Of a stretch of 47,081 nucleotides of DNA, positions 2,658-30,996 are shown one piece after another. The first letter of the stretch is position 1, and each line of letters opens with the position of its first letter. The position numbers and the translations under genes are program-made. The notes under the pieces are model-generated. The model searched no databases. It was not told the DNA's origin and saw nothing but the letters and a program-made list of their open reading frames with translations. The stretch spans positions 1 through 47,081 of IMG/VR virus record IMGVR_UViG_3300032307_000541, one strand, 5' to 3'. Source of the DNA: a virus.

Positions 2658-3077
2658 ATGAGAAAAGAAAAAATATGGTTGTACTTAGATGATGTAAGGA
2701 CACCAACGGATGATAGATGGCAAGTTGTTAGGAGTTACGATGAATTTGTAGCTCATATCAAAATGAATGGATTGGAGAATTATGAAACAATATCATTAGA
2801 CCACGATTTGGGTGATACTGCTATGAAAGAATATTATAACAATGTTCACCCAAACTACACATTGGATTATAATAACATAACCGAAAAGACTGGACTTGAT
2901 TGTTGTAAGTTTTTGGTGGCGGAAAGTATGAATACAAAAATACCTTTACCACAAATTTATGTACATTCAGCTAATCCAATTGGTAGTGGAAATATGATGG
3001 GATATATAAACAATTACTTTATGAATTGTAGAATGCCTCAAACCTGTATAAGAATAAAAGTAGAACACACAATATAA
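2658..3077 (+). CDS. cyclic-phosphate processing receiver (cREC) domain protein
   Basis: A 139-residue stand-alone receiver-like domain. Acidic pocket residues D11-D12 (LYLDDVRTP) and the SLDHDLGD motif at 47-54 fit the cREC family (cyclic-phosphate processing receiver), known in phages and beside RNA end-processing enzymes. Comparative-genomics work has proposed that this family acts on cyclic phosphates; I know of no structure-level proof for this protein. It follows the metallophosphoesterase by 4 nt and must be co-transcribed with it. Confidence 0.75.
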   Translation: MRKEKIWLYLDDVRTPTDDRWQVVRSYDEFVAHIKMNGLENYETISLDHDLGDTAMKEYYNNVHPNYTLDYNNITEKTGLDCCKFLVAESMNTKIPLPQIYVHSANPIGSGNMMGYINNYFMNCRMPQTCIRIKVEHTI

Positions 3078-3479: not shown

Positions 3480-3524
3480 ATTGATTATCAATGGGTTATA
3501 ATATATTGATTATCAATGGGTTAT
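3480..3524. repeat. two copies of the dyad repeat
   Basis: ATTGATTATCAATGGGTTAT occurs at 3480-3499 and again at 3505-3524, 25 nt apart. Each copy contains the near-palindrome ATTGAT-T-ATCAAT. The same dyad, often in the fuller form AACYCATTGA-N3-TCAATGRGTT, recurs at seven intergenic places in the window, usually upstream of a promoter. Operator or RNA-hairpin roles are both possible. Confidence 0.7.
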
Positions 3525-4422: not shown

Positions 4423-5532
4423 ATGAAGTTAGAAACAATTTACAAAAAAACTAAGACAGGGGCAACCCAAGAGTGGACAATCGAAGTATCGGATAATAAG
4501 TACCGAACATATAGCGGACAAGTTGGTGGCCAAATTACTACAAATGCATGGACTGTAGTATATGGTAAGAATACTGGTAAAGCAAATGGTACTACCGATG
4601 AGGAGCAAGCACTTAAAGAAGCTATTGCTAAACGAACAAAAAAATTAGAGAGTGGTTACTTTGAAAGTATTATTAACATTGATACCAAACAATACTTTGA
4701 ACCAATGTTAGCAGCTAAGTGGGAGGATTATAAAGATAAGATTCAATATCCTATCTATTCGCAGGCTAAGTTGGATGGTATTCGTTGTATCCTAACAAAA
4801 GATGGGATGTTTAGTAGGAATGGTAAACCAATCATTTCAGCACCACACATCTTTGATTCAGTAAAGCCACTATTCGAAACAAATCCTGATTTGATATTCG
4901 ATGGTGAGTTATATGCTGATAAGTTCGCTAATGATTTCAATAAGATTGTATCGTTGGTTAAGAAAACAAAACCAACTGCGGATGACCTTAAAGAAAGTAA
5001 AGAGCTGATTGAATATCACATTTACGATTTACCAAGCTCAAACAAAAACTTTATACAAAGAGCATACGATTTGGCTATACTATTCGAAACCCGTTCAGAG
5101 TTACATCCACATTGTAGAATCGTTGAAACATATAAAGTTCCAAGCGAAGATGTAGTTACTGAATTGTATGAAAAATATGTAGAGGAAGGGTATGAAGGCC
5201 AAATGTTACGATTGGATGGTAAGTATGAGAATAAGAGAAGTAAAAACCTATTGAAGCATAAATCATTTGTGGATGAGGAATATACTATCTTAGATATTTG
5301 TGAGGGTGAAGGTAACCGAACTGGAACTGCTGGTTATATGGTATTTGAAACAGCTGACGGTAAACCATTCAAATCAAATGTGAAAGGGACATGGGAGCAA
5401 ACGGCTGAAATGTTAAAGAACAAAAAGCAATTGATAGGTAAACAGGCAACGATTAAGTATTTCAACTTAACGCCGGATGGTATTCCTCGTTTTCCATTTG
5501 TTATTAATATTGATAGAAATAGTTACGAATAG
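4423..5532 (+). CDS. ATP-dependent DNA ligase with WGR-like N-terminal region
   Basis: A 369-residue ligase. Residues 1-80 resemble a WGR-type module (QEWTIEVSDNKYRTYSGQVGG). The nucleotidyltransferase core follows: KLDG at 116-119 supplies the adenylated lysine K116, then FDGELYA (motif III), EGYEGQMLRLDG (motif IIIa/IV) and LLKHKSF (motif V). The C-terminal 90 residues are the OB domain. It seals nicks in DNA during replication and repair using ATP. The size and ATP-type motifs fit phage ligases rather than the NAD-dependent bacterial housekeeping enzyme. The stop shares its last base with a GTG start. Confidence 0.93.
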   Translation: MKLETIYKKTKTGATQEWTIEVSDNKYRTYSGQVGGQITTNAWTVVYGKNTGKANGTTDEEQALKEAIAKRTKKLESGYFESIINIDTKQYFEPMLAAKWEDYKDKIQYPIYSQAKLDGIRCILTKDGMFSRNGKPIISAPHIFDSVKPLFETNPDLIFDGELYADKFANDFNKIVSLVKKTKPTADDLKESKELIEYHIYDLPSSNKNFIQRAYDLAILFETRSELHPHCRIVETYKVPSEDVVTELYEKYVEEGYEGQMLRLDGKYENKRSKNLLKHKSFVDEEYTILDICEGEGNRTGTAGYMVFETADGKPFKSNVKGTWEQTAEMLKNKKQLIGKQATIKYFNLTPDGIPRFPFVINIDRNSYE

Positions 5533-7002: not shown

Positions 7003-7929
7003 ATGGCATTCGAATCGTTTGAGGACAGATATGCACGACAAATGAAGGAGCGTGAAGAACAAATACAACAACAAAAATTAGAACAACAATTAAAATTTAA
7101 AAAAATGATTAAAACAATCGTAGGTAGTGTAGTAGGTTTTATCCTATTAGTAGTATTATTCAATTCGTGTGAGAGAATTGATGCAGGACATGTTGGTGTA
7201 AAAGTAAACCAATATGGTGATAACAAAGGTGTGGATGATGTAGTAGCAGTAACTGGTATGGTATTTTACAATCCACTTACAACAAAAGTATATGAGTTCC
7301 CTACATTCATTCAACATAAAGAATACAAAGATGAGAATTCATTCGTAGTAAATAGCAAGGATGGTTCGGAGTTTAGCGTATCACCTATTATGAACTATTC
7401 AGTACAAAGAGAGAAAGTACCTTCTATCTTTAGTAAGTATCGTAGACCATTAGAAGATATTGAGGAAGGATTCTTAAAAACAGCAGTGTATGATGCATTC
7501 AGATTAGCAACTAACAAATATACGGCTGATGAATTGATTAGTAATAGAGCAGTATTTGAAGTAGAGGTTCGTAGATTATTAGATGCACAATTATTAAAAG
7601 AGGGATTTATTATCAATCAGTTTACATCTAACTTAATTTATCCTGAAACATTTAAGAAATCCATTGAAGCTAAGAACAATGCAGTTCAAGCTGCATTGAG
7701 AGCAGAGAATGAAGTTAAAACGGCTGAAGCACAGGCGAAGATTAAAGTAGCAACGGCTGAAGGTAACGCTCAGGCATTATTAACATCGGCAAAAGCTGAA
7801 GCTGAAGCAAATAGGATGAAGCAACAAACATTGACACCATTACTTATTCAATTAGAATATGTAAACAAATGGGATGGTAAGTTGCCTGTATATGGAACTG
7901 TACCACAACTGTTCAAAAATATTCAATAA
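7003..7929 (+). CDS. SPFH/prohibitin-family membrane protein
   Basis: A 308-residue protein: Gln/Glu-rich coil at 10-33, one membrane span about 36-54, an SPFH (band 7) domain about 57-225 and a C-terminal Ala/Glu-rich coiled coil (about 222-275). This matches the prohibitin/HflK-HflC architecture. Such proteins form ring- or cage-like membrane scaffolds that control proteases. Phage copies are known, and may protect phage membrane proteins or alter the host envelope; that role is inferred. The unit ends at the terminator near 7941. Confidence 0.88.
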   Translation: MAFESFEDRYARQMKEREEQIQQQKLEQQLKFKKMIKTIVGSVVGFILLVVLFNSCERIDAGHVGVKVNQYGDNKGVDDVVAVTGMVFYNPLTTKVYEFPTFIQHKEYKDENSFVVNSKDGSEFSVSPIMNYSVQREKVPSIFSKYRRPLEDIEEGFLKTAVYDAFRLATNKYTADELISNRAVFEVEVRRLLDAQLLKEGFIINQFTSNLIYPETFKKSIEAKNNAVQAALRAENEVKTAEAQAKIKVATAEGNAQALLTSAKAEAEANRMKQQTLTPLLIQLEYVNKWDGKLPVYGTVPQLFKNIQ

Positions 7930-7940
7930 AATAATAGTAC

Positions 7941-7971
7941 GGAAAAGTCTTGGTGATATCAGGACTTTTTC
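7941..7971 (+). terminator. short terminator overlapping a promoter
   Basis: GGAAAAGTC (7941-7949) pairs with GACTTTTTC (7963-7971), 9 bp with one G-U, 13-nt loop and built-in T-run. It ends the SPFH unit and its two arms span the -33 box and TCAGG element of the promoter that follows. Confidence 0.6.
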
Positions 7972-7980
7972 GTATATTTG
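7949..7980 (+). promoter_or_regulatory. Bacteroidetes-type promoter with TCAGG spacer element
   Basis: CTTG 7949-7952, 20 nt, TATATTTG 7973-7980, TCAGG at 7959. Drives the unit from 8023 to about 9.7 kb. Confidence 0.8.
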
Positions 7981-10320: not shown

Positions 10321-10629
10321 ATGGCAGAGCAACATGAATTAGCAAAACCTTTAGCAGATAGGGTATTGATTAGAGTAGAAAAGGAAGTTACAAAAACCGC
10401 AGGTGGTATTATCTTACCTGAAACCGTTGAAAGTAGAGATACTAAAATTGGAACGGTAGTTTCAGTTGGTGAGGGTATCTATACCAACGATGGGGTTAAA
10501 ATTCCAATGAGTGTAAAGGTGGGTGATAAAGTTATGATGCCATTCGCTGGTTCTGCACAAAAAGTAAAATTAGGTGATGAAGATTTTCTATTATTTAGAG
10601 AGCAAGAACTTTTAATGGTAATTAGATAA
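10321..10629 (+). CDS. groES: GroES-like cochaperonin
   Basis: A 102-residue Cpn10. KPLADRVLIRVEKE opens the beta-barrel, TAGGIILPE is the mobile loop that docks on GroEL, and DGVKIPMSVKVGDKVMMPF and DFLLFREQELLMVI complete the fold. No groEL is present in the window, so it presumably works with the host GroEL, as phage T4 gp31 does in capsid folding. It starts 1 nt after the CDGSH-like gene and is followed by a cyclophilin gene, forming a folding module. Confidence 0.94.
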   Translation: MAEQHELAKPLADRVLIRVEKEVTKTAGGIILPETVESRDTKIGTVVSVGEGIYTNDGVKIPMSVKVGDKVMMPFAGSAQKVKLGDEDFLLFREQELLMVIR

Positions 10630-10639
10630 AATATAAATT

Positions 10640-11077
10640 ATGGGAACTAGAGTAAAAATAAAAACAGCAAAAGGTGATATGGTTGTTGAATTGTATGACA
10701 ATGAAACGCCAATTACAGTAAATAACTTTTTAAAATTAGTAGAAAAAGGATTTTACAATGGATTAAATTTCCATAGAGTACTACCAAACTTTGTAATTCA
10801 GGGTGGATGTCCAAACAAAAATGGTACGGGTGGTCCGGGTTACACAATTCCTTGTGAGGTAACTGCACCAAAACAATTTCACGATAGAGGTGTAATGAGT
10901 ATGGCACATGCCGGTAGAAACACTGGAGGTTCACAATTCTTTATTTGCCATAATAGAGCAGGTACGGCACACTTAGATGGCAATCACACTTGCTTCGGTA
11001 AAGTGATTGAAGGGTTGGATGTGATTGATGCTATTCGCCCAATGGATTCTATTGATTTAATGTTCGTATTGGATTAA
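10640..11077 (+). CDS. cyclophilin-type peptidyl-prolyl isomerase
   Basis: A 145-residue single-domain cyclophilin without signal peptide, so cytoplasmic. Active-site landmarks: FHRVLPNFVIQGG with catalytic Arg46, GSQFFI at 97-102 and His111 in HLDG. It catalyses cis-trans isomerisation of X-Pro bonds. Slightly short of the usual length of about 160. Its place right after GroES suggests joint folding of phage proteins. Confidence 0.94.
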   Translation: MGTRVKIKTAKGDMVVELYDNETPITVNNFLKLVEKGFYNGLNFHRVLPNFVIQGGCPNKNGTGGPGYTIPCEVTAPKQFHDRGVMSMAHAGRNTGGSQFFICHNRAGTAHLDGNHTCFGKVIEGLDVIDAIRPMDSIDLMFVLD

Positions 11078-11568: not shown

Positions 11569-11812
11569 TATATTTGGTTATATAGGTACTATATTAATTT
11601 TGTATTCATTTACAATTGAAAATATATACAAGCTCCGTTTGATTAATTCAATTGGTTCTGTATTTTGGATAATATACGGAATAGGTATTATGGCAGGACC
11701 TACTATATTGGTTAATAGCTGTGTACTTTGTATTCACACATATTGGTTTATAAAACAAAAAAATAAAAAAAGTGCTAACAATACAAAATCAACAAAAGCT
11801 ATTAGGTACTAA
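11561..11812 (+). CDS. YgjV/PQ-loop-like membrane protein
   Basis: An 83-residue protein with three predicted spans (about 4-19, 28-45, 48-68). The pattern GYIGTILILYSF, then LRLINSIGSVFWIIYGI, then P and LVNS, resembles half-transporters of the PQ-loop/SemiSWEET and YgjV type. In those families, dimers form small-solute channels in the inner membrane. Substrate and activity here are unknown. It overlaps the next gene by 41 nt. Confidence 0.6.
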   Translation: MIDIFGYIGTILILYSFTIENIYKLRLINSIGSVFWIIYGIGIMAGPTILVNSCVLCIHTYWFIKQKNKKSANNTKSTKAIRY

Positions 11813-12071
11813 TTTGATGGGTATTTACCAGCAACGTCCAATGGTTTGGGTTGTAACTTCAATAAAGGCACACATACATCATTATGTAATTTTTATTGAG
11901 CAAACTGAATTGGGGTGGGAACGTAAAGTAGTATTAGATAGAACCTTTACTCAAAACCGAGATGGAAAGCAGTATAAGCTAGAATGCGGAAATAGTAAAG
12001 TATATTTGTTCAAAGATAGTATAAACGATATGAAAACCTTTAGTCAACATTTAGAATATTTTTTAAGTTAA
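11772..12071 (+). CDS. MLTIxNI-family protein, array 1 member 1 (GTG start)
   Basis: A 99-residue member of the family that recurs 14 times in the window. GTG at 11772 gives the family N-terminus MLTIQN with LLGTN after it; the next ATG (11817) would cut this off. A central HHYVIFIEQ strand and terminal FSQHLEYF helix match the family layout. It overlaps the preceding gene by 41 nt. Function unknown. Confidence 0.6.
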   Translation: MLTIQNQQKLLGTNLMGIYQQRPMVWVVTSIKAHIHHYVIFIEQTELGWERKVVLDRTFTQNRDGKQYKLECGNSKVYLFKDSINDMKTFSQHLEYFLS

Positions 12072-12072
12072 T

Positions 12073-12534
12073 ATGCCACACATACCAATACCACCAACAC
12101 CAACGATGTCAACACAGCAAATGCTACAAAAGATACAACAAATAAGTGCTGGGAATATCTATAATACTCCGCCTGTAATGGATGCTAAACAAATAGCCGA
12201 TATAGCATTGGAGCAGGCTAAAAAGGTATTAGATGAATTTATGAAGCAAGAGCAAGAAAAAAGAAAAACTATATTAACGATTGAAAACATTGATAAGATT
12301 ATTGGGTCTGATTATAATGATAGTTTAAGAGTGGCGGGAGTTAAAGAGTTGGACACACATTATGAATTCACTTTAATATACGCTCACCATAATACAATTG
12401 AAACAATACTTTTACATAGGAGACAGACATCCGATAAGAGGTATATAATGGAATATCAAGGGCAGACATTGTGGGTGACTAAAGATAGGTTAAGTACGAT
12501 TGATGGAATTTTAGAATGTATGCGAGAAGTATAA
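12073..12534 (+). CDS. MLTIxNI-family protein with Pro-rich N-terminal extension
   Basis: A 153-residue protein. Residues 1-66 are an extension: a Pro-rich start (HIPIPPTPT) and a helix (AKQIADIALEQAKKVLDEF). From residue 67 the family core begins, ILTIENIDKIIGS, followed by HYEFTLIY, LLHRR and a C-terminal helix. Fusion of the core to a separate segment shows that the core is a domain. Starts 1 nt after the preceding stop. Confidence 0.6.
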   Translation: MPHIPIPPTPTMSTQQMLQKIQQISAGNIYNTPPVMDAKQIADIALEQAKKVLDEFMKQEQEKRKTILTIENIDKIIGSDYNDSLRVAGVKELDTHYEFTLIYAHHNTIETILLHRRQTSDKRYIMEYQGQTLWVTKDRLSTIDGILECMREV

Positions 12535-12544
12535 AACAAAAAAT

Positions 12545-12841
12545 ATGAAAGACGAAAGATTAGAATTCCTTTCCGATGAAGTTCGTAAAGGTAACCCAAT
12601 TGGATTAAGGGAAGCAATGGAAGTTGCAGAGTATCAGAGTGGATTACAAAATATGCGAAAAGCTCGTAGTGAAAGACGTGAACGAATTCTTAAATCATTA
12701 GCAGCGGTTGTGTGTTCAGCTGCAGGCGGTGTGGCATTGGTGTTAGGTGAAATTGATGATTCACCGGGTTTAGGTGGTATTGGTTTGTTTCTTATTGCGT
12801 CGTGTATGTATTTGAATTCAAAATTAGTAAATGGAAAATAA
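12545..12841 (+). CDS. membrane protein
   Basis: A 98-residue protein with a polar, basic N-terminal 45 residues and two predicted spans near 48-64 (LAAVVCSAAGGVALVLG) and 74-90. The spans are joined by a short Asp/Gly loop. No family recognised. Confidence 0.55.
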   Translation: MKDERLEFLSDEVRKGNPIGLREAMEVAEYQSGLQNMRKARSERRERILKSLAAVVCSAAGGVALVLGEIDDSPGLGGIGLFLIASCMYLNSKLVNGK

Positions 12842-12847
12842 AACAAT

Positions 12848-13108
12848 ATGAGAGTAATTTATAAATACGGATTTTCACAAACAATTCAACTGCCAATTGA
12901 TTCGCAAGTTTTGAAAGTTGGAATGCAAAATGGTATTATACAAATGTGGGTATTAATAGACCCAAATCAAAAACAAACATGCTATCGTAATTTTGAAATG
13001 ATTGCTACGGGACATGAGTTTGAATTTGATTATTTAACCCATACCTATATTGATTCATTATTTGATGGACCATTTGTATGGCATATTTGGGAAATAAATA
13101 AAAATTAA
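12848..13108 (+). CDS. DUF7352-like phage protein
   Basis: An 86-residue beta-rich protein. The order IYKYGF, IQLPIDSQVLKVGMQNG, IQMWVLIDP, ATGHEF and a final FVWHIWE matches a small family common in phages that I recognise as DUF7352 (memory-based match). Function unknown in that family. Seven nt after the membrane-protein stop. Confidence 0.65.
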   Translation: MRVIYKYGFSQTIQLPIDSQVLKVGMQNGIIQMWVLIDPNQKQTCYRNFEMIATGHEFEFDYLTHTYIDSLFDGPFVWHIWEINKN

Positions 13109-13109
13109 T

Positions 13110-13421
13110 ATGAGTATAACATTTTCAAATGATTCATCCCATTTAACAATGGAAGGTAGCACAAAGGCTCAAATGAATTCCTCAATTACGATAGCAGGTA
13201 GTGGAACGAAGTTACCAATTACAATAATTGGTGAGTTCAAAGATATTCCGCCACACTTACATCAAATTTATATTCAAGCGATGTGGAATTCGTATGGCGA
13301 TACCAATGTGTACAATAACACAAAGGAAGAGCCATACCCAATGACGATTAAAGAAAAACAAAGGGAGTGGAGGTTGAATAGAATTGTGGACATAATTAGT
13401 AAAGCAATATTAAAAAAATAA
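13110..13421 (+). CDS. hypothetical protein
   Basis: A 103-residue protein with a Ser/Thr-rich beta-like N-terminal half and a basic helical end (MTIKEKQREWRLNRIVDIIS). Starts 1 nt after the upstream stop. A long minus-strand frame over it is a shadow. No family recognised. Confidence 0.55.
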   Translation: MSITFSNDSSHLTMEGSTKAQMNSSITIAGSGTKLPITIIGEFKDIPPHLHQIYIQAMWNSYGDTNVYNNTKEEPYPMTIKEKQREWRLNRIVDIISKAILKK

Positions 13422-13424
13422 GTT

Positions 13425-13769
13425 ATGGGATTAGCAGATATCCTTTTTCCAATTAAGAAAACATTTGATGATATAAACCAACCAGATGATTTGGAAAAAA
13501 TACAACAAAACAATTTAGAGTTGGCACAAAAATTGAAAGAACAAGATAGATTGAAGTCGCAATATCCAATGAAACGATACCACATAGAAGTTGTATCAGG
13601 TGGAGTAATATTGCCGTACACAATTGAAGCGAGAGGGTTTGAATATAGTGAGTGTGGGACATATTATTTCTATGACTATAAATTCTTAAACGATGGCCGT
13701 AGAGAAAGAGAAATCCTTTCACATTTTCCAATAGATAAAACAATAATCAAAAAAATAGAAACACTATAA
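13425..13769 (+). CDS. hypothetical protein sharing the DILFPIK motif with array 2
   Basis: A 114-residue protein. Its N-terminal ADILFPIKKTFDDI is closely matched by LDILFPIKETIADI near the C terminus of the 26720 protein of the second array, linking the two clusters. A central coil (LEKIQQNNLELAQKLKEQ) and beta-rich C-terminal half follow. No family recognised. Confidence 0.6.
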   Translation: MGLADILFPIKKTFDDINQPDDLEKIQQNNLELAQKLKEQDRLKSQYPMKRYHIEVVSGGVILPYTIEARGFEYSECGTYYFYDYKFLNDGRREREILSHFPIDKTIIKKIETL

Positions 13770-13770
13770 T

Positions 13771-14016
13771 ATGGATAATCAAGAAAGAAATATTGCAGTA
13801 GTATTTGTGTGTATAGCATTTGGAATGTTATTTGCTTTATTGTATGGAATGGCAACTGAATTGCATGATATACGAATGGAGTTGTGGAATATCAAAAGAG
13901 AGCATCATGTTATTGTAGAACATCAATATAAAGTAACAGCTGATACGGTTGTAGTATATAAAGAAAGGATAATCAAAAGTAAAGGAATTTCGAAGGGATA
14001 TGAAAAAATGGATTAA
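13771..14016 (+). CDS. single-span membrane protein
   Basis: An 81-residue protein with a membrane span at about 8-28 (VVFVCIAFGMLFALLYGMAT) and a helical, charged cytoplasmic or periplasmic tail. It overlaps the next tiny membrane gene by 17 nt. The overlapping pair recalls spanin gene nesting, but there is no lipobox, so no such claim is made. Confidence 0.5.
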   Translation: MDNQERNIAVVFVCIAFGMLFALLYGMATELHDIRMELWNIKREHHVIVEHQYKVTADTVVVYKERIIKSKGISKGYEKMD

Positions 14017-14140
14017 GGAATGGAATGTTATAATAGCAGTGTATGTATTATTGGCATCCGCAATTGTGTTTCAGATGTATTACATATATCAATTGAAGCA
14101 AGAGTTAAAAATATATAAGAATGATACTAAAAAACCCTGA
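14000..14140 (+). CDS. 46-residue single-span membrane protein
   Basis: ATG 14000 opens a frame nested into the ends of both neighbours (17 nt upstream, 20 nt downstream overlap). Basic start (MKKWIKEW), one span at about 9-27 and a basic tail. Nested position, and an ordered span, favour a real gene, but it is small. Confidence 0.5.
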   Translation: MKKWIKEWNVIIAVYVLLASAIVFQMYYIYQLKQELKIYKNDTKKP

Positions 14141-14450
14141 AAAATTTTTAAAACAATTTATACCAACAATCGAAGGTGACCTTTGGTATGTAACTGATTT
14201 GAATATAACGATGGACGAGGAGGGTACTACATACATATATAAAATGGCTACTCAAATCCCTGTTAAGAGTTCATCTAATCAGCAATATTATCATTATACT
14301 CGTAAAATGGAGCAAGAGGTTACATTAAGATTCTATGATAAAATTTATGAGTTATATTGTAGTGGACAGACATGGAGGGGATATTATGAGGACATAGATA
14401 CGATGGATAAATTTACTAATAAAGTAGCAGATATGTTACCAAAATATTAA
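14121..14450 (+). CDS. MLTIxNI-related protein, divergent N-terminus
   Basis: A 109-residue protein of the same size and layout as the array members (LWYV strand, YHYTRKMEQEVTLRFY, YELYCS, C-terminal helix with FTNKVADML) but with MILKNPEKFLKQF in place of the MLTIENI start. It precedes three clear members, separated from the next one by a single base. Assigned to the family by layout; moderate support. Confidence 0.5.
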   Translation: MILKNPEKFLKQFIPTIEGDLWYVTDLNITMDEEGTTYIYKMATQIPVKSSSNQQYYHYTRKMEQEVTLRFYDKIYELYCSGQTWRGYYEDIDTMDKFTNKVADMLPKY

Positions 14451-14451
14451 T

Positions 14452-14784
14452 ATGCTAACAATAGATAACATACAAAATATAGAAGGTAAAGAATTCCAAA
14501 TGAGTAGTGGGCAGAAGTATGTAATTGGTATTGTAAGGGATTATTATGACCATTATAGTTTTGGGGTATTTCCTTTAAAAGAAAACAATGTAGCAAGTAT
14601 AAAGGATGGTATTGTATATAAATTACATAGAACAAAAAAGAGTAGAAGGGGATATAAATTAGTTGCACCTCAAATGAGTTGGCAACCTTATGTGAAGCCG
14701 GAAAACTTAACCTTAGATAATTTCGTATTAGAATTACACATACAAACTGGATTATTAAATGCTTACAATAGAAAACATACATAA
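14452..14784 (+). CDS. MLTIxNI-family protein
   Basis: A 110-residue member: MLTIDNIQNIEGKEF start, YSFGVFPL strand, KLHR basic motif, long final helix. The last 26 nt (AATGCTTACAATAGAAAACA...) also encode the start of the next paralogue in another frame, so the conserved family start sequence is used twice. Confidence 0.65.
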   Translation: MLTIDNIQNIEGKEFQMSSGQKYVIGIVRDYYDHYSFGVFPLKENNVASIKDGIVYKLHRTKKSRRGYKLVAPQMSWQPYVKPENLTLDNFVLELHIQTGLLNAYNRKHT

Positions 14785-15091
14785 TATAAAGTTATTGGCA
14801 AATTCATTAAGAGTGGGTGGTGAAAGGTGGCAATTAAGTAATATACAAACGGCTAGTGATTTGTACCAATTTGTGTTTACATGCATTGAATCATATCAAT
14901 CCGGTGTATTAGGACGAGAATCGGTAATCAATTTATACCGAAAAGATACGATGGAATACCTTAAATTGGGTCAAAGGGTATATGAATTGAAATGTATAAC
15001 CAATAATAAAAGCAGATTATTAGGTATTAATGATTTGAAAGAACCCGGCTTATTAATATATCCAATTTTAAGAGTAATACAAGGATGCTAA
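14759..15091 (+). CDS. MLTIxNI-family protein
   Basis: A 110-residue member: MLTIENIHNIKLL, then GGERWQLSNI, YQFVFTCI, YELKCI and a hydrophobic C-terminal segment. Overlaps its paralogous neighbours by 26 nt and 7 nt. The nucleotide sequence of the first 20 bases is nearly identical to that of the next gene, evidence for recent tandem duplication. Confidence 0.65.
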   Translation: MLTIENIHNIKLLANSLRVGGERWQLSNIQTASDLYQFVFTCIESYQSGVLGRESVINLYRKDTMEYLKLGQRVYELKCITNNKSRLLGINDLKEPGLLIYPILRVIQGC

Positions 15092-15408
15092 CAATAGAAA
15101 ACATAAACATAATCAATAGTAAGTTCGCAGGTACACCGGAATGGCAGATAGGTGAAATGTTTATAGGTTCACAAAACTATGTATTTCAAATCCATAAACG
15201 GGTAGGTGAGTGGACGATACAAGGAATACCGCAAGCTAGTTTAACGATACGATTGCATAGGATAAAGGCAATGGATGGGTATGTAATGGAAAGCGGATTC
15301 GTAAGGCAAAACTATTATGCCCGCTCCGTATATAGTATAGAGAATATGAAAACCATAACCGATTTTACAATGTGCTTGGACAGACATATTAAAACAATAT
15401 TAAGATAA
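15085..15408 (+). CDS. MLTIxNI-family protein, end of array 1
   Basis: A 107-residue member: MLTIENINIINSKFAG, PEWQIGEM, YVFQIHKR, LTIRLHRIKAMDGYVM and a C-terminal helix (FTMCLDRHIKTIL). Overlaps the upstream paralogue by 7 nt. Family pattern is seen; function unknown. Confidence 0.65.
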   Translation: MLTIENINIINSKFAGTPEWQIGEMFIGSQNYVFQIHKRVGEWTIQGIPQASLTIRLHRIKAMDGYVMESGFVRQNYYARSVYSIENMKTITDFTMCLDRHIKTILR

Positions 15409-18043: not shown

Positions 18044-18211
18044 ATGTCCGAACAGGAAATGATTGAAAAGGCCCGTATGGTGGGTATGGATGAGGAATTG
18101 ATATCGTATGCCAAACAAATACAGCGCCAATTGGGGTCCGAAGGGGATATAGCCGATTGGTTAGATTGCTTGGAGATGGCATATAACGAATTGATTATCA
18201 ATGAGTTATAA
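18044..18211 (+). CDS. 55-residue acidic helical protein
   Basis: Starts 3 nt after the upstream stop. Helical, with three Met early on and WLDCLEMAYNELIINEL at the end. The last codons and stop are written by the dyad repeat TTGATTATCAATGAGTTATAA, so the repeat also shapes the C terminus. The same 'NEL-stop' ending is seen at 18545. Confidence 0.55.
   Translation: MSEQEMIEKARMVGMDEELISYAKQIQRQLGSEGDIADWLDCLEMAYNELIINEL
18191..18211. repeat. dyad repeat overlapping a stop codon
   Basis: TTGATTATCAATGAGTTATA at 18191-18210 matches the dyad consensus ATTGATTATCAATGRGTTAT. A divergent relative, TTGATAGCCAATGAGTTATAA, ends the next gene at 18545. Confidence 0.6.
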
Positions 18212-20643: not shown

Positions 20644-20921
20644 ATGCCGGTCCCACTTGTACCCAATGTTCCCAACGTTCCCCTTGTTCCCTCAGCAGAA
20701 GACGTTTGCGGAGGCGTTAGATTTAGTATAGGTAACTTACAATTTATTCCAGAACTATACAAAATAACCTACAATTTAGGGTTAAACTATAAGTTATGCC
20801 GTACTGTAAAAACAGAAATCTGGAAAATCTGGTCTTGGGGTATTCCTAACTGGTTGATTATCAATGGGTGACGTAACTCATTGATTCTCAATAAACAATT
20901 TTTAAAATAATTCCCCCAGAA
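20644..20921. other. spacer without a secure gene
   Basis: Together with the terminator before and the promoter after, this makes a 386-bp gap. It contains a repeat-rich frame VPNVPNVPLVPS starting inside the terminator tail that I do not accept as a gene, and the dyad repeats at 20853-20893. Nothing else seen. Confidence 0.5.
20853..20893. repeat. two dyad-repeat copies
   Basis: GTTGATTATCAATGGGT (20853-20869) and AACTCATTGATTCTCAATA (20875-20893), both centred on TTGATT-TCAA. They lie about 30 nt before the next promoter. Confidence 0.65.
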
Positions 20922-23555: not shown

Positions 23556-24031
23556 GGGGGGGGACTACTCCCCTGGCAGATGACCCTCTTATGTTCTGAA
23601 GGTAGATACCGGATATGGGTGAGTAGCCTGTATAGGTGTGTGGTGTGGAGGCGGCTGTGTGTGGATTCGCATGGGTGTGAGTATTCGGGGTACCAGGGGG
23701 GACTGAATTACTTGGAACTCAAGGAATTTTGCGATGACCCGCCCACGTCTGACCCTTTCACGTATCGAGCGTAATTTTTTCGGGTATAGGATTTTTATAG
23801 GGTAAGGTAGTACCTAGCTCTTATTATTGGATGGGTGGGTATCAATTTAGCCCTTTCCCTTTTAGCGTATATTAGACCCCCTTATTTTGAGAGGTTTTGG
23901 GATGGGATGGGTATTTGGATGGTTCGGAGGATTGAGGGGCTTATAAGGGAAATAAAGCCCCTAATATGTAAAGGGTTGATTTTCAATGGTTTATAACTCG
24001 TTGATTATCAATAAACAATTTTCTTCCAGTA
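23556..24031. other. GC-richer region without a secure gene
   Basis: About 530 bp to the next accepted start. It begins with a hairpin GGGGA (23560-23564) / TCCCC (23569-23573) just after the stop. A 64-codon frame at 23580-23774 is open but has Cys, Trp and Arg-rich sequence unlike neighbours. AGGGGCTT (23935-23942) pairs perfectly with AAGCCCCT (23955-23962). G-rich direct repeats (GGATGGGTGGG, GGGATGGGATGGG) lie between. A structured RNA or decayed gene is possible. Confidence 0.45.
23974..24020. repeat. two dyad-repeat copies before a promoter
   Basis: GGTTGATTTTCAATGGTTTAT (23974-23994) and AACTCGTTGATTATCAATAA (23995-24014), tandem and almost touching, 18 nt before the -33 box at 24032. 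Confidence 0.65.
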
Positions 24032-24063
24032 TTTGGAATTCTCAGGTATTATTCGTATTTTTA
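24032..24063 (+). promoter_or_regulatory. Bacteroidetes-type promoter with TCAGG spacer element
   Basis: TTTG 24032-24035, 20 nt, TATTTTTA 24056-24063, TCAGG at 24042; followed by ACTATGTAAC. Confidence 0.8.
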
Positions 24064-25144: not shown

Positions 25145-25387
25145 ATGAGTACTATTAAACAATTTGATGATGTCCAAGCTTATGAAGAACTACAAAAACG
25201 TAGAGAGCAGACTATGTTAGACCCGAAGTATCAACAATGGGTTAAAGAGTTACACATTTCTCAATCGTATGTAGAGCCGGATGGTATGATACGAGCGGCT
25301 GAAATAAATTCTCAATACGACTTTTCGGGCAGTACATCGAAATCCTCAATTCTTAACTTCTTAAAGATTAAAGGTATATGGAGTTAG
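25145..25387 (+). CDS. hypothetical protein opening array 2
   Basis: An 80-residue helical, polar protein (VQAYEELQKRREQTMLDPKYQQW). Starts 5 nt after AACCCCTTA and overlaps the next gene by 10 nt. It lacks the MLTIxNI start and is not counted in the family. Confidence 0.55.
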   Translation: MSTIKQFDDVQAYEELQKRREQTMLDPKYQQWVKELHISQSYVEPDGMIRAAEINSQYDFSGSTSKSSILNFLKIKGIWS

Positions 25388-25722
25388 TAATAGATGGTAT
25401 AACCAAATTAATATATCGTACCTATCACGGACGTAAGATAGAGGATATCCGTATTGATAAAAGAGAACCCAATACAAATTCTTCATCCTATGTTTTTACC
25501 TTTCCTCCAATTGATAGTCCGTTAGATGGATGGAATAGAAAGATGGAAGTTTACCTTTGTAAATTCCCTACACCGGATGAGAAGTATGAATTATTCGTTA
25601 TGGGATTGCATGGAGTGACTTGTTATTATTTGGAAAGGGATGAAATTAAAGATTTTGAAAAGTTCCATAACTATATGGTATCAACTATGTTTAAAGCTAA
25701 ATTTTATTGGGAATCATGTTAA
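25378..25722 (+). CDS. MLTIxNI-related protein, divergent
   Basis: A 114-residue protein with MELVIDGITKLI in place of MLTIENIxxL, then SYVFTFPP, MEVYLCKF and a final FHNYMVSTMF helix, the same layout as the array genes. Overlaps the next member by 7 nt. Family membership inferred from layout and position. Confidence 0.5.
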   Translation: MELVIDGITKLIYRTYHGRKIEDIRIDKREPNTNSSSYVFTFPPIDSPLDGWNRKMEVYLCKFPTPDEKYELFVMGLHGVTCYYLERDEIKDFEKFHNYMVSTMFKAKFYWESC

Positions 25723-26042
25723 CAATTGTAAACATATTAAAGTTAGAAGGTCAAACCCTATTAAGTGATTGGAAAATCCAATTGGTATATGAAACTACAC
25801 ATAATAATTGCTATGTGTTTGAGATAGTTAGGGATTTAGGATTGGGACAGGGATTGGCAATCAGACGTAAGATTATGTTGGAAAGGGAAGGTAGGAGGAT
25901 ATTCGGACAGCCTGATTTATCTTATTTCTTCATAAAGGATTCACAACGAACTAATGTATGTGTTTCCGCTAACTACATAGCCGATAAAGATAATATGATA
26001 TCACAATTAGAAAACATCTTACAAAAGTATAAAGATTTATAA
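25716..26042 (+). CDS. MLTIxNI-family protein
   Basis: A 108-residue member. ATG 25716 is preferred to TTG 25707 because it gives the family start MLTIVNILKLEG. Then SDWKIQLV, CYVFEIVR, KIMLERE and C-terminal LENILQKY. Next member starts 1 nt after its stop. Confidence 0.65.
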   Translation: MLTIVNILKLEGQTLLSDWKIQLVYETTHNNCYVFEIVRDLGLGQGLAIRRKIMLEREGRRIFGQPDLSYFFIKDSQRTNVCVSANYIADKDNMISQLENILQKYKDL

Positions 26043-26043
26043 T

Positions 26044-26382
26044 ATGCTAAAGATAGAAAATATAGTAGATTTAAATGGTTCGGTATGTGGAGGATTCGAA
26101 CTATCACATTGCGCTTTTTTGGAGAACGGCTCTAACTTAGTAAGAGATGCTCACTACCAAATACAATTCGATAAGTGTCCACCTCAAGGTAATGCTAAGG
26201 CAGCATGTTTAACTATTGGTGCTAACTCCGATGGGAATGGTAGATACTTTTGTAAATTATACTATGCAACAACGGATAATGTAATATGGCAGGAGTGGTT
26301 GGATATAAGTGTACTTCGTAAAAGAAACGGATTACTAAGTTCAATGGCGAATAAGATTCATTTACACATAAACCGAATATAG
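26044..26382 (+). CDS. MLTIxNI-family protein
   Basis: A 112-residue member beginning MLKIENIVDLNGS; GGFELSHCAF, HYQIQFDK, CKLYYA and a C-terminal MANKIHLHI helix. Six cysteines are unusual for the family and could bind metal. One nucleotide separates it from each neighbour. Confidence 0.65.
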   Translation: MLKIENIVDLNGSVCGGFELSHCAFLENGSNLVRDAHYQIQFDKCPPQGNAKAACLTIGANSDGNGRYFCKLYYATTDNVIWQEWLDISVLRKRNGLLSSMANKIHLHINRI

Positions 26383-26383
26383 A

Positions 26384-26716
26384 ATGCTAACAATACAAAA
26401 TATAGAAAACCTAAAAGGGATGAACTTGGGTTATTGGAAAGTGAGTGATACTGAAGCCAGTAGACCTACTAAGTGGTTAATGACTGAACACTATTGTATT
26501 AGAGTACATAGAGGTGGTGAGGCGGCTGCTATCCTAATTTGGAGAAACATAAACCCCTTAACCAAACAATATCATGTAAATGTATGTTATGATGATTTTA
26601 CCAATGTGATATACGAAGGTGCCTTTTCTAAGCAGGTGATTCAAGATAAAGGACACTTTTTATCCCATATAATGGGGCATATAAAAGCTGAATACTACTT
26701 AAGAAAACAAAAATAG
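26384..26716 (+). CDS. MLTIxNI-family protein
   Basis: A 110-residue member: MLTIQNIENLKGMN, LGYWKVSD, HYCIRVHRG, a Trp in the third strand (ILIWRN) and a basic end KAEYYLRKQK. Tandem with near-identical first bases to its neighbours. Confidence 0.65.
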   Translation: MLTIQNIENLKGMNLGYWKVSDTEASRPTKWLMTEHYCIRVHRGGEAAAILIWRNINPLTKQYHVNVCYDDFTNVIYEGAFSKQVIQDKGHFLSHIMGHIKAEYYLRKQK

Positions 26717-26719
26717 AAT

Positions 26720-27322
26720 ATGTTACAATTACAAAATATAGATAAGTTGATAGGAACATCAATAGTGAATTGGGCATGTGTAAACGTATCCGATGCTATG
26801 GGTACATACTTAATTACTTTTAAGCCATACGGAAATTCAATCTATACGGCAGAGTTTCTATTGAATAGGGATGATTCCCATTTAAAAGGAATGTATAGAG
26901 TGAATGGTATATTATACGAATCAACTGGATTGGGTAATGTGAATATTGGTAACTTCGATATGCATGTAACCCGAGCCGAACTACAAACACCAATGGAATT
27001 TATGAGAATCCTAACACGTCCTCTTAGAGTATTCGAAAAGGATATGGAAGTAAACATTCAAAGAAAAATGTTTAATACTTCTTCCCTATCATCTAATAAG
27101 TTTGTTGGTAGAGGAGCACCAACATCTCCATTTAGTAAACCGATTTCATCTCTACCACCAACATTAAATAGTGTACCGGATTGGTATGTAGATGAACCTA
27201 AAAAACTTAGTAGATGGGAAAGGATTAAGAATAAGGTATTGGATATTCTATTCCCAATCAAAGAAACAATTGCGGACATAAAACCCAAACCCAAACTAAG
27301 GGCTAAAAAAGCAGCATACTAA
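26720..27322 (+). CDS. MLTIxNI-family protein with long C-terminal extension
   Basis: A 200-residue fusion. The core is residues 1-110 (MLQLQNIDKLIGTSIVNWAC; FLLNRDDS; FMRILTRPL); then a Ser/Pro-rich linker with FVGRGAPTSPFSKPISSLPP and a C-terminal RIKNKVLDILFPIKETIADI. That last motif matches the N terminus of the 13425 protein, linking array 2 to array 1. Confidence 0.65.
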   Translation: MLQLQNIDKLIGTSIVNWACVNVSDAMGTYLITFKPYGNSIYTAEFLLNRDDSHLKGMYRVNGILYESTGLGNVNIGNFDMHVTRAELQTPMEFMRILTRPLRVFEKDMEVNIQRKMFNTSSLSSNKFVGRGAPTSPFSKPISSLPPTLNSVPDWYVDEPKKLSRWERIKNKVLDILFPIKETIADIKPKPKLRAKKAAY

Positions 27323-27330
27323 TACATAAT

Positions 27331-27648
27331 ATGAAACTAATAATACAAAACTATAAAGCAGTAATAGGTACTATGTTACATCAGGAGAGATTCGTATGTA
27401 CTAAGGCAGAAGAAACCCCTACTAACTACCGATTTCAATTCCGAGACGATGGAAGTCCGCAACTTCGTATGTTATGGATTGAAGTCCGTAGATTCGGGCA
27501 ATGGGATGCCAACGATGGTGGTAATTGGGTATATCGATTAAACTACCTAAATCAAGGTGTAGCCTTACATATAGTAACTGCTCAATGGTTTGGTAAGATA
27601 ACGAATGTAATGAGAACCTTTAGGGATTGCTTGGAAAAATCACTTTAG
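27331..27648 (+). CDS. MLTIxNI-family protein
   Basis: A 105-residue member beginning MKLIIQNYKAVIGT; YRFQFRDD, LRMLWIEVRR, YRLNY and a C-terminal FRDCLEKSL. Four nt from the next member. Confidence 0.6.
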   Translation: MKLIIQNYKAVIGTMLHQERFVCTKAEETPTNYRFQFRDDGSPQLRMLWIEVRRFGQWDANDGGNWVYRLNYLNQGVALHIVTAQWFGKITNVMRTFRDCLEKSL

Positions 27649-27651
27649 AAT

Positions 27652-28116
27652 ATGAGTATAATGAGAACAAAAGGAATGGGAAAGGTAGTGATTACCTCTA
27701 CACCAATTTCCGCTGGAAGCTGGGCGGCTAAGTACTATCAACAAAATCAAACCCAAAAAAATCCTAACTTCGACACGATTGGGAAGTTAGTGATACAAAA
27801 CTATGCAAAGGATTTGGGTAGTGGTGTATTTTGGGGATGGGATGTTATTTCCGCTGATGAGATGGATGATGTGTATTTATTCCAATTACGAAACCGAGAG
27901 AATTCAAAGTTACGGGTTTATATTACTTTAGGTAGAGAGTTACAAACTTCCGATTTAGAGAACAACCTATACCAATTGTATCAATGTTATATGCATGATG
28001 ATGATGGGAATTGGGAAGAAAGATTTTGGTTGGATGGTAAGGATATTAATCATAAAACATTTTGGGGAAAAATAGAAACAATTGTAGATAAACATCATCC
28101 GTTATATCCATTTTAA
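27652..28116 (+). CDS. MLTIxNI-family protein with N-terminal extension
   Basis: A 154-residue protein. A 43-residue extension precedes the core GKLVIQNYAKDLGSG; WGWDVI, YLFQLRNR and YQLYQCY follow. A second example, with the 12073 protein, of the core attached to a different N-terminal segment. Confidence 0.6.
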   Translation: MSIMRTKGMGKVVITSTPISAGSWAAKYYQQNQTQKNPNFDTIGKLVIQNYAKDLGSGVFWGWDVISADEMDDVYLFQLRNRENSKLRVYITLGRELQTSDLENNLYQLYQCYMHDDDGNWEERFWLDGKDINHKTFWGKIETIVDKHHPLYPF

Positions 28117-28118
28117 TT

Positions 28119-28430
28119 ATGCTACGAATAGAGAACTTTAATAAGATACAAAAACGTTGGTTTGGCGATTGGCAAATTGGTAGAACCGATGAGGGTAACG
28201 CATATTATGCTTTAAACGCCAAACATAAAGATGGTAAGAGAAGTGTAACGGTTGTTATATTTAAAGAAGATAAGTTAGATACGGAATTTGCCGAAACTGC
28301 TTATAGTATATCTCTTATAGATGATACGGTTGGAATCTCATCTCAAATTGATGATATTATATATAAAGCAGTATTAGAAGATATGGAATTATTTGGAGAA
28401 TCATTAGTACATTATTTAAACACAATATAG
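28119..28430 (+). CDS. MLTIxNI-family protein, end of array 2
   Basis: A 103-residue member: MLRIENFNKIQKRWFGDWQI, YYALNAK, VTVVIFKED, YSISLID and a final FGESLVHYL helix. The start of the nucleotidyltransferase gene follows 3 nt after its stop. Confidence 0.6.
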   Translation: MLRIENFNKIQKRWFGDWQIGRTDEGNAYYALNAKHKDGKRSVTVVIFKEDKLDTEFAETAYSISLIDDTVGISSQIDDIIYKAVLEDMELFGESLVHYLNTI

Positions 28431-28433
28431 AAT

Positions 28434-29177
28434 ATGAAAAAAGAAAAAGCAATTATAGTTAGTGGGTACTTTAATCCCCTACACAAAGGACACTTAGAGT
28501 TATTTAAAAAAGCTAAATCACAAGCCGATAAGTTATGGGTAATCGTTAATTCGGATTTCCAAAGAGAATTAAAAGGTTCTAAAGAGTTCATGTCCGATAC
28601 TGAGCGATTAGAAATAGTAAAGGCGATTAAGTGGGTTGATTATGCATTAATCTCGTCCGATAGAGATAGAACTCAATGTTATACCTTACAACAATTTCAC
28701 GAAATGTTTTCGGATAAATATGATTTGGCATTTGCCAATGGTGGAGACCAAAACAATGATACCATTCCTGAAAGAGAAGTTTGTGAGAGATTGGGTATAG
28801 AACTATTAGATGGTTTGGGTGATAAAATACAAAGTAGTAGTTGGTTACTGAAAGCAGACCTAAAAGAGAAAACAAAACGTTACTTTGAGTTATTTGCATC
28901 AAAGAATGTTAAAGGATTGGAAAATGAAATTTATGCAGATAATATTTTCCTTAGAGATTGGAATGGTGAATGGAGAGGTAAACAGGCAGTTTTGGAGATG
29001 AATGAAAATCTTTTTGAAAGTGAATTCCAAATTACTAATATAGAAATCAAACAGGCAGATAATACAACTTTAGTACAATTTGATTTACACATAGCAGATA
29101 CCATTCTAAAAGTTGTGGATGTGATTGATTGGAACGAAAATGGAAAGATAGAAAGAATCTTAGCATATAATGGATAA
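28434..29177 (+). CDS. cytidylyltransferase-like protein fused to a SnoaL-like domain
   Basis: A 247-residue two-domain protein. Residues 1-140 are a HIGH-type nucleotidyltransferase: FNPLHKGH with H17-x-G-H20, and IQSSSWLL (132-139) in the position of the ISTT motif of cytidylyltransferases (TagD, RfaE C-terminal, PCYT types). Residues about 143-247 (KTKRYFELFASKNVKG..., RGKQAVLEMNENLF) look like a SnoaL/NTF2-like domain. It would transfer a nucleotide to a phospho-sugar or phospho-alcohol; substrate unknown. A bidirectional terminator follows. Confidence 0.78.
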   Translation: MKKEKAIIVSGYFNPLHKGHLELFKKAKSQADKLWVIVNSDFQRELKGSKEFMSDTERLEIVKAIKWVDYALISSDRDRTQCYTLQQFHEMFSDKYDLAFANGGDQNNDTIPEREVCERLGIELLDGLGDKIQSSSWLLKADLKEKTKRYFELFASKNVKGLENEIYADNIFLRDWNGEWRGKQAVLEMNENLFESEFQITNIEIKQADNTTLVQFDLHIADTILKVVDVIDWNENGKIERILAYNG

Positions 29178-29211
29178 AAAGAAAGGGAGTGTTTAACTCC
29201 CTTTTTCTTTT
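29178..29211. terminator. bidirectional terminator between convergent genes
   Basis: AAAGGGAGT (29182-29190) pairs with ACTCCCTTT (29196-29204), 9 bp, 5-nt loop, with T-rich tracts on both sides. It separates the plus-strand nucleotidyltransferase from the minus-strand zinc-ribbon gene. Confidence 0.82.
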
Positions 29212-29238
29212 GAATACCTTGTGATTTATTATAACTTA

Positions 29239-30036
29239 TTAAAATTTATTTCCGCAGTGTGGGCAGAACTTAAAAGATGATTTCTTTCTTTTAGCTCCAC
29301 AATTTCCACAATAGTTTACACCTACTTCTTCTGCTGTATATTGTTTTTGTGATGTTGGTAAAATCTGCCAAACAACATTCCAAAACGAAAACTGATTGAA
29401 TGTTTTGTTTGTATGTTGGAATGTTTGTTCTGAACTATCACCCTTTTCAGTTGTACCTGTTTCTACTTTATTAGATAGATTTCTAATGTTTGGACCTTCA
29501 AATGTATTAGTGGTTAAACTAGCATTATAGAATGTGCTTGTTGATGTAGTTGCGGTACCTGATGTTAAACTATTCACACCAGTTGTAGTAAATGTTATTG
29601 GATTTCCATTAACTGTATGCGTTGAGTATGTGAAACTAGGACTTCCATAAATGGTTCTATTTGGGAATGTTGGTTTGTATTCTGAATAGAACTCAATCTC
29701 CACATATCCGTTATTTCTAATCGCATCCTGAACCTCTGTATTATTTCCATTAACTACATAGGTTGAGTATTTAAACTTGTTAGGCGAGTCCAAAAAGCGT
29801 TCTAAGAACACTCTTTCACCCCTTCTAAGAACTATACCGCCGCCGGCAATATAATCCCCATCGATTTTAATTTTTGCCAATACTACCTCTTGTGAAGGAT
29901 TGAATAGCTCAATTTCGTATTCATCTCCATCGGAGAGATATACTTGTCCATCAAATTGTTTGATTCTTTTTTTACCTTTCGTAATGAAGGCTTCTGGTCT
30001 TTTTGTAGCAGACCATGTGTTTGTAATGTTGTACAT
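29239..30036 (-). CDS. zinc-ribbon protein with beta-rich body
   Basis: A 265-residue protein. The first 130 residues hold beta-rich sequence (YEIELFNPSQEVVLAKIKIDG; GGIVLRRGERVFLERFLD), then a Thr/Asn-rich linker, and a C-terminal zinc ribbon with Cys243, Cys246, Cys258 and Cys261 (CGNCG ... CPHCG). The beta part resembles carbohydrate or virion-surface folds, but I cannot name a family. Lies at the end of the minus-strand block. Its promoter is not obvious; the only TATTTTTA-like box upstream lacks a -33 partner. Confidence 0.7.
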   Translation of the reverse strand: MYNITNTWSATKRPEAFITKGKKRIKQFDGQVYLSDGDEYEIELFNPSQEVVLAKIKIDGDYIAGGGIVLRRGERVFLERFLDSPNKFKYSTYVVNGNNTEVQDAIRNNGYVEIEFYSEYKPTFPNRTIYGSPSFTYSTHTVNGNPITFTTTGVNSLTSGTATTSTSTFYNASLTTNTFEGPNIRNLSNKVETGTTEKGDSSEQTFQHTNKTFNQFSFWNVVWQILPTSQKQYTAEEVGVNYCGNCGAKRKKSSFKFCPHCGNKF

Positions 30037-30266
30037 AATTGTCTTGTTTTTGTTTGTTTATTTAAGCCTTTATTCGTTGAGGGTTTTATTTTCAACTCGA
30101 ATGTTTCTAAGAACACTAAAGGATTAACCACAAGGTTTCGTATATAAATATGTATTAAAAATAAAATTGTATTATTTAAAGAACCTTTTTTGACATATTA
30201 GGAAAATACAATTTTTATTGGTTTTTTACAATTCGGGCGTATATTTATATTAAAATAATATAATAT
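30037..30266. other. 230-bp A/T-rich spacer between divergent genes
   Basis: Separates the minus-strand zinc-ribbon gene from the small plus-strand gene at 30267. ATTG at 30217-30220 and TATATTTA at 30240-30247 (19-nt spacing) form a weak plus-strand promoter. No other signal seen. Confidence 0.4.
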
Positions 30267-30392
30267 ATGATAAACTTACTTATAGCCCTTACATTAATGT
30301 GTAGCTCTTTAGGAGCAGTAATTTCTAAAACAACAAAGGAGTATGGATTCCGCAAACACAGAGAACATACTGAACCATTAAAGTTGGATTAA
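30267..30392 (+). CDS. 41-residue peptide with hydrophobic N-terminus
   Basis: MINLLIALTLMCSSLGAVIS is a short hydrophobic stretch (signal-like or anchor), then a polar tail (YGFRKHREHTEPL). Plus-strand gene in the minus-strand block, convergent with and overlapping by 15 nt the P-loop gene. Weak promoter in front; low-moderate support. Confidence 0.4.
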   Translation: MINLLIALTLMCSSLGAVISKTTKEYGFRKHREHTEPLKLD

Positions 30393-30926: not shown

Positions 30927-30930
30927 AACA

Positions 30931-30961: not shown

Positions 30962-30963
30962 AT

Positions 30964-30991: not shown

Positions 30992-30996
30992 TATTA

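Follow-up and report, generated by a model that had tools for sequence, protein, structure and literature searches.

The viral sequence examined here, positions 1 to 47,081 of IMG/VR record IMGVR_UViG_3300032307_000541 (47,081 nucleotides; hereafter the window), contains two arrays of small genes, six in array 1 (11772-15408) and eight in array 2 (25378-28430), whose products form a single paralogue family. We lean toward the view that both arrays are cassette loci for phage-specific, small, one-domain proteins that bind varied host targets, and that whole reading frames are exchanged at the sequence with which the genes start. Genes are named below by their first nucleotide, and G numbers denote related viral records. 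A preliminary description of the window had proposed an unrecognized family in two arrays, and all fourteen genes are present as it described them.

Two Arrays of One Protein Family

Profile evidence joins the arrays. A profile seeded on canonical members placed 13 of the 14 window genes below the inclusion threshold, with 25378 at E 0.03; after iteration with relatives all 14 were found at E ≤2e-11, and no reversed open reading frame (ORF) fell below 0.07. In a jackknife at E ≤0.01, the profile from array 1 recovered 27 of the 29 members that lie elsewhere, and that from array 2 recovered 20 of 22, so that the failure to connect the arrays, which the preliminary description had named as grounds for abandoning the family, did not occur. 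With the first 12 residues removed the same profiles recovered 18/29 and 14/22, and the link between the arrays is therefore more than the N-terminal motif. The family numbers 171 members in nine viral records (12 to 35 per record), a count that leaves out near-copies and G008. No family in Pfam, PHROGs, NCBIfam, or PADLOC covers the 60 members scanned, which gave single-member matches only (E 0.004-0.009), and the best match in a profile search of PDB sequences was a designed protein at E 0.13. A 26-residue match, L005, is not a member by profile.

The conserved columns, weighted by orthogroup, are L2, I4, N6 (94%), W19-x-I/V21, Y31 (95%)-x-F/I33, L/I49-x-R/K51 (95% basic), and Y60 (82%)-x-L/M62, with a C-terminal helix; the motif layout given earlier (W-x-I, Y-x-F, a basic LxR, Y-x-L, and a C-terminal helix) reappears in these columns and in the structural models. 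AlphaFold models of 15085 from array 1 (predicted local distance difference test [pLDDT] 88.9, predicted template modeling score [pTM] 0.82) and 27331 from array 2 (pLDDT 90.4, pTM 0.81) have the same architecture: the motif is followed by a short helix, a meander of five main strands comes next, and another helix forms the C-terminus. Members of both arrays are thus predicted to share one fold, rather than the unlike folds that would have argued against the family, although the two models were built on the same alignment sequence set and are not fully independent. In the models N6 sits just before the short helix, the position expected for a helix cap, which may explain its near-invariance. 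Foldseek found no significant match of the models in PDB or BFVD, a negative that for the second comparison extends to the families included in it, and the family has no conserved constellation of catalytic look. Isoelectric points are at least 8 in 40 of 95 members and below 6 in 26; the most conserved member, 28119, has a value of 4.8. A tree of 76 members, in which few columns leave the deep forks unresolved, shows clustering by array (9 changes vs 23 in shuffles), with neither array forming one clade.

The array genes and start sequences of the window, all on the plus strand, are as follows:

11772..12071 (+), array 1 member, orthogroup 8; GTG start, 99 aa; profile E 2.6e-20; orthologues in G002, G005, and G007
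12073..12534 (+), array 1 member, orthogroup 23; by profile; orthologue G005_15165
14121..14450 (+), array 1 member, orthogroup 7; divergent, without the start sequence; profile E 1.6e-11; orthologues at 56% and 43%
14452..14784 (+), array 1 member, orthogroup 5; by profile; C-terminal codons overlap the start sequence of the next gene
14452..14472 (+), start sequence, 1 mismatch to the consensus 21-mer
14759..15091 (+), array 1 member, inserted between orthogroups 5 and 4; 64% relative in G010
14759..14779 (+), start sequence, 1 mismatch to the consensus 21-mer
15085..15408 (+), array 1 member, orthogroup 4; by profile; exact 21-mer; structure predicted
15085..15105 (+), start sequence ATGCTAACAATAGAAAACATA, exact consensus by 21-mer comparison
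25378..25722 (+), array 2 member, orthogroup 3; by profile; opens array 2 in 6/6 compared phages
25716..26042 (+), array 2 member, orthogroup 9; by profile and orthogroup comparison
26044..26382 (+), array 2 member; by profile; no orthologue among the six compared phages; similar sequence, by eye, at G010 30527-30862
26384..26716 (+), array 2 member, orthogroup 22; by profile; start 2 bases off the consensus 21-mer
26720..27322 (+), array 2 member, orthogroup 10; by profile; C-terminal extension of ~90 residues with a basic tail at its end
27331..27648 (+), array 2 member, orthogroup 2; by profile; in 6/6 phages; structure predicted
27652..28116 (+), array 2 member, orthogroup 1; by profile; in 6/6 phages; N-terminal extension of ~45 residues
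28119..28430 (+), array 2 member, orthogroup 0; by profile; closes array 2 in 6/6 phages; 67-69% identity to three orthologues

The six array 1 products had been said to begin with, contain, or fit the layout of an MLTI-type motif, but 14121 lacks it and in 12073, where the family domain begins at nucleotide 12271 after a 66-residue N-terminal extension, it is internal (residue 67). Overlaps of 7-41 nucleotides between array genes do occur, as had been said, but neighboring genes are most often 1 nucleotide apart. Six unrelated small ORFs (12545-14140) split array 1, and tiny membrane proteins do adjoin it: 11561 matches Imp-YgjV, and 13771 and 14000 appear membrane-bound, judged from sequence. 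By eye, the segment LFPIKxTxxDI is common to the N-terminus of the 13425-13769 product and the C-terminal tail of 26720 (26720-27322), and it is possible that this is a common docking segment.

The Start Sequence

The first 21 nucleotides of the genes (ATGCTAACAATAGAAAACATA) have a mean DNA identity among paralogues of 0.84, compared with 0.37 immediately before and 0.42 immediately after them, which bears out the earlier remark that the genes diverge strongly beyond their starts. The claim that the first 20 bases of neighboring genes are almost identical needs qualification, since it holds for 14452, 14759, and 15085 (zero or one base off consensus) and for 26384 (two), but not for 12073, 14121, or 11772, the last of which departs from the 21-mer at 5 of 21 positions.

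The conservation is expressed in codon choice. At codon 2, CTA is used in 39/56 canonical starts, compared with 10% of leucines elsewhere and 12% at other gene starts. Where the motif does not directly follow the start codon, CTA is used in 2 of 25 cases and TTA or TTG in the other 23 (2/25 vs 39/56, Fisher P 1.6e-7); counted by group, CTA predominates in 16 of 25 directly placed groups and in none of seven displaced ones. Other codons are skewed as well: ACA at codon 3 (44/45), ATA at codons 4 (54/56) and 7 (36/37), and AAC at codon 6 (42/61 vs 29%). The codon rows include orthologues, so binomial P values calculated from them overstate the significance. Conservation of the first 21 bases is seen at the level of the DNA and exceeds the requirements of the protein.

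Every match to the 21-mer with three or fewer mismatches in the searched regions is the start of a family gene, including the one at 37858 in G001, where the ORF 37559-37933 starts in frame. In a blind test, the exact 21-mer occurred in seven contigs of a 2.9-million-contig collection, and all seven carry the family; three of these (G010, G011, and G012) were new, found only by the DNA start sequence, and have 17-32 members each, with CTA again at codon 2 in 37 of 52 starts. Secondary structure at the family starts is only slightly weaker than at the starts of other genes (-4.0 vs -5.4 kcal/mol).

The product of 14452 terminates in NAYNRKHT in the window, in NANNRKHKHTQ in G001, and in YAHNRK in G002. 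The start sequence of whichever gene follows supplies part of the 3′ end of this one, as expected if the next gene had been swapped at the seam.

Turnover and Selection

Orthogroups mostly keep their order, and array 2 opens with orthogroup 3 and closes with 2-1-0 in all six compared phages, with a middle set that varies. The number of members between the orthologues of 14452 and 15085 is zero in G001, one in the window (14759), and four, all different from 14759, in both G002 and G007. For orthogroup 4 genes with different left neighbors, identity is 0.27-0.33 in the 30 nucleotides upstream, 0.95-1.00 in the first 21, and 0.87-0.93 in the next 30; for all orthologue pairs with different left neighbors the corresponding values are 0.34, 0.77, and 0.60. 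The unit of gain, loss, and replacement is the whole gene, and the breaks fall at the start codon.

The arrays also differ from the rest of these genomes in how they diverge. In the compared regions, G002 and G009 have a median identity of 91% in other genes and 52% in the family, and for G007 and G009 the figures are 92% and 56%. Conversely, G007 and G012 have one member that is 77% identical against a median of 38% for other genes, and G007 and G011 have one at 87% against 49%. Divergence of the arrays between close phages, combined with shared members between distant ones, is the signature of exchange and transfer and not of point mutation alone.

The closest member pairs within a genome are only ~38-42% identical, which indicates ancient paralogues and no recent duplication; the preliminary description of the family as expanding is therefore not supported. 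Its description as fast-diverging is right in that the members are strongly variable, but not in the sense of positive selection on point changes, for which a test had been proposed: the ratio of nonsynonymous to synonymous substitution rates (dN/dS) between orthologues is 0.19-0.48, with a median of ~0.31 compared with ~0.17 for other genes. The family is under purifying selection, and the evidence supports its being hypervariable by exchange, with most of the variation arising through turnover of whole genes at the start codon and through transfer between distant phages.

Carrier Phages and Host

The family is carried by T4-superfamily phages. Among the relatives it is present in G001 (160 kb) and its near-copy G004, G002 (89.5 kb), G005 and its near-copy G006, G007 (274 kb), and G009, and G008 has one family gene at the edge of its record; all are metagenomic contigs, mostly incomplete. 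T4-type core genes are present among them, gp23 capsid and gp20 portal in G007 and a T4-type polymerase, clamp loader, and clamp in G001. The 47-kb window itself has no match to gp23 or gp20, and it is placed in the superfamily because of its kinship with G001, with which it has in common 46 non-family genes at a median identity of 74%. Every member in G007 belongs to one of two arrays (37-41 and 50-54 kb), and ~180 kb separates these arrays from the genes for capsid and portal.

When four members were used as protein queries against 50,697 records, the family was not found in cultured phages. Microcystis phage Mel-JY01 (L055, PP395634.1), which has the deposited DNA polymerase nearest to that of G001 (52%) and also a run of glycosyltransferase genes, is without it. 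Two host-genome scans, which reach near relatives only, gave no close relative, and plasmid matches in Bradyrhizobium (E 0.01-0.04, 32%) were taken as chance. A crAss-like carrier had been suggested by a helicase at 35193 (38%); this was rejected, the family being absent from csAssE-Sib (OR575929) and the relatives having T4-type core genes.

Promoters of Bacteroidota are of the type TTTG / TAnnTTTG. Operons on the coding strand are preceded by sites that match this consensus, including the following, both from a consensus scan only:

7950..7980 (+), Bacteroidota-type promoter-like site, upstream of the gene run that includes array 1
24033..24063 (+), Bacteroidota-type promoter-like site, upstream of the gene run that includes array 2

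On the strength of these sites the host is likely to belong to the Bacteroidota. G001 has no such site between ~105 and 141 kb, and at ~116-140 kb (L035-L036) it has a long block of ORFs that by eye resemble glycosyltransferases and sugar-nucleotide enzymes, adjoining a tail-fibre gene.

Comparison with Known Systems

Two features of T4-type phages invite comparison. Ip1, Ip2, and Ip3 of T4 are injected anti-restriction proteins, each of which inhibits a different restriction enzyme (PMC12373910). Like the array members they are small accessory proteins of a T4-type phage, encoded at two loci, that share an N-terminus but diverge in the body, and they are the closest functional analogy. The arrays differ in holding 12-35 copies per phage and in the conservation of the first 21 nucleotides as DNA; moreover, the Ip proteins have a terminal packaging signal, whereas the motif of the array members can be internal and belongs to the fold, and it is on this signal that membership among the Ip proteins fails. 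The closest evolutionary analogy is promoter early stem-loop (PeSL) shuffling, in which, as far as the account cited in PMC4503421 goes, an early promoter and a stem-loop lie between shuffled genes of T4-type phages. In both cases a short repeat stands beside accessory genes, borders genes gained or lost between relatives (the breaks here falling at the 21-nucleotide start sequence), and would let whole genes shuffle between T4-type phages. Measured against that account the array seam is of another kind: it lies inside the coding sequence, in the first seven codons, serves one protein family only, and comes without promoter or stem-loop. No promoter-like site was found on the coding strand between members, the starts are weakly structured, and the spacing is mostly 1 nucleotide.

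Small genes without assigned roles also come and go in the "ORFanage" of cyanophage S-PM2 (PMC4503421) and in other T4-type plastic regions, but the array genes are homologous, ordered, and furnished with a common start sequence. At tifA in T4, recombination at microhomologies amplifies or deletes accessory counter-defence genes (PMC9391042), another instance of T4-type recombination altering accessory gene content; tifA, however, represents recent tandem amplification of one locus, whereas the array paralogues are ancient and without recent copies.

Interpretation and Alternatives

We suggest that the members are probably expressed early or in mid-infection, from long operons with host-type promoters, and that the start sequence would be the seam at which the phage recombination machinery exchanges whole reading frames, keeping both frame and translation start, with cassettes drawn from a pool common to related phages. 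By analogy with defence inhibitors or takeover factors, each protein might then present the same scaffold to a different protein of the host or of a competing element; the repertoire of members could track the hosts met, and the conserved core, orthogroups 0-3, could do a job needed in every infection. An accessory, target-binding role is inferred because the proteins are small and have no catalytic signature, their promoters are of host type, their genes lie far from structural genes, and high turnover is combined with a conserved core. The more specific proposal, that the 21-nucleotide in-frame start is a recombination port through which T4-type phages trade complete frames of one adaptable scaffold and so come to differ in their repertoires of target-binding proteins, is one that we put forward tentatively.

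Several points weigh against this interpretation. R/K51, Y31, and Y60 could form a common functional site, which would imply one shared ligand rather than many targets, and orthogroups 0-3 are too stable for pure arms-race genes. The similarity of the 21 nucleotides within genomes (0.84) is barely above that between genomes (0.81), which argues against it in that no recent homogenization within genomes is visible. The start sequence could also be conserved for translation alone, and the preference for CTA, being tied to the start codon, fits a role in translation as well as it fits a seam. Such a translation-level element, either a start context or the site of a translational regulator, with turnover by ordinary recombination that tends to break at gene boundaries, is a realistic alternative, if not the one we would choose. 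RegA sites of T4 overlap start codons, and here the codon preference needs the motif directly after the start codon, the conservation begins exactly at the ATG, and the sequence is stable both across phages and within them. On the other hand, within the searched regions no gene outside the family starts with it, even when up to three mismatches are allowed, and the family starts are only slightly less structured than others. A search for the RegA family in four records gave no match, but the control genomes gave none either, and the result weighs neither way. The seam and the translation element are inseparable on this evidence, and both may be real.

The remaining alternatives concern what the proteins do. 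Binding of nucleic acid, transcript or DNA, through the conserved basic residue and the aromatic residues of the sheet would suit the conservation of R/K51 (basic in 95%), Y31 (95%), and Y60 (82%) and the 40 of 95 members with an isoelectric point of at least 8, but the 26 below 6 include 28119, the most conserved of all (4.8), and known nucleic-acid-binding families gave no match; we regard it as improbable. Similarly improbable is the idea that the members are packaged and ejected with the DNA against host restriction, as Ip1-Ip3 are. The T4-superfamily carrier, the conserved N-terminus with a variable body, and the two loci, as for the T4 ip genes (PMC12373910), all agree with it, and yet in orthogroups 1 and 23 the motif is internal, ~40-70 residues into the protein, a position incompatible with a terminal packaging signal, and in the models it leads into the short helix of the fold, with N6 ahead of that helix. 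We think it very unlikely that the members are RWD/UBC-like decoys against ubiquitin-like conjugation by the host (CBASS/Bil type). The order of elements in that fold (helix, antiparallel meander, C-terminal helix) is similar, and its representatives are, weakly, the best structural alignments of both models: 2fo3 (Z 5.5, 93 aligned, 4.2 Å) and 8tz0_C, a bacterial E2 (Z 5.0, 91 aligned, 3.4 Å). Z-scores of only 5-5.5 are not above background for small folds or separated from unrelated rows, however, Csm1 domains being among the rows next after UBC/RWD, and there is no conserved cysteine, no sequence match, and no significant match by Foldseek. Least probable is that the genes are functionless selfish duplicates kept by recombination; their large copy number and the lack of a known role would fit, but reading frames are intact, dN/dS stays at 0.19-0.48 over large divergence, and four orthogroups are held in order in 6/6 compared phages.

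If exchange of target-binding cassettes is the correct explanation, then the arrays represent a large unnamed accessory family, with up to 35 variants per genome, that a 21-base probe suffices to recognize, and they offer a testable mechanism by which phages could swap accessory genes without breaking reading frames. Should the members prove to be target-specific inhibitors, the arrays would be catalogues for finding new host defences in poorly studied bacteria.

Other Features of the Window

A palindrome-like repeat, ATTGATTATCAATGGGTTAT, has 10 matches with three or fewer mismatches against 0.03 expected, mostly shortly upstream of promoter-like sites, and may be either an operator or an element of the PeSL kind. 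It is found at the following positions:

3480-3524, palindrome-like element
18183-18209, palindrome-like element
20853-20872, palindrome-like element
23975-24012, palindrome-like element
34575-34594, palindrome-like element
40847-40873, palindrome-like element

The minus strand encodes, at 30997-34257, a 1086-residue outer-membrane barrel of the TonB-dependent-receptor type (OMP_b-brl_4, CarboxypepD_reg, Plug). It has a separate Bacteroidota-type promoter-like site, at 34485 (-), and G001 carries a similar ORF (29177-32470). A barrel of this kind is unusual for a phage and is possibly involved in receptor masking or superinfection exclusion. The window also encodes a chaperone set, consisting of a GroES co-chaperonin (10321-10629), a cyclophilin-type prolyl isomerase (10640-11077), and Hsp20 (43164-43643), the first two of which sit in the gene run leading into array 1. 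Further genes specify an SPFH/Band_7 (flotillin-like) protein (7003-7929), the UV endonuclease UvdE (45358-46302), PhoH (39983-40813), an ATP-dependent DNA ligase (4423-5532), and a protein with a cREC_REC receiver-like domain (2658-3077, E 1.3e-22).

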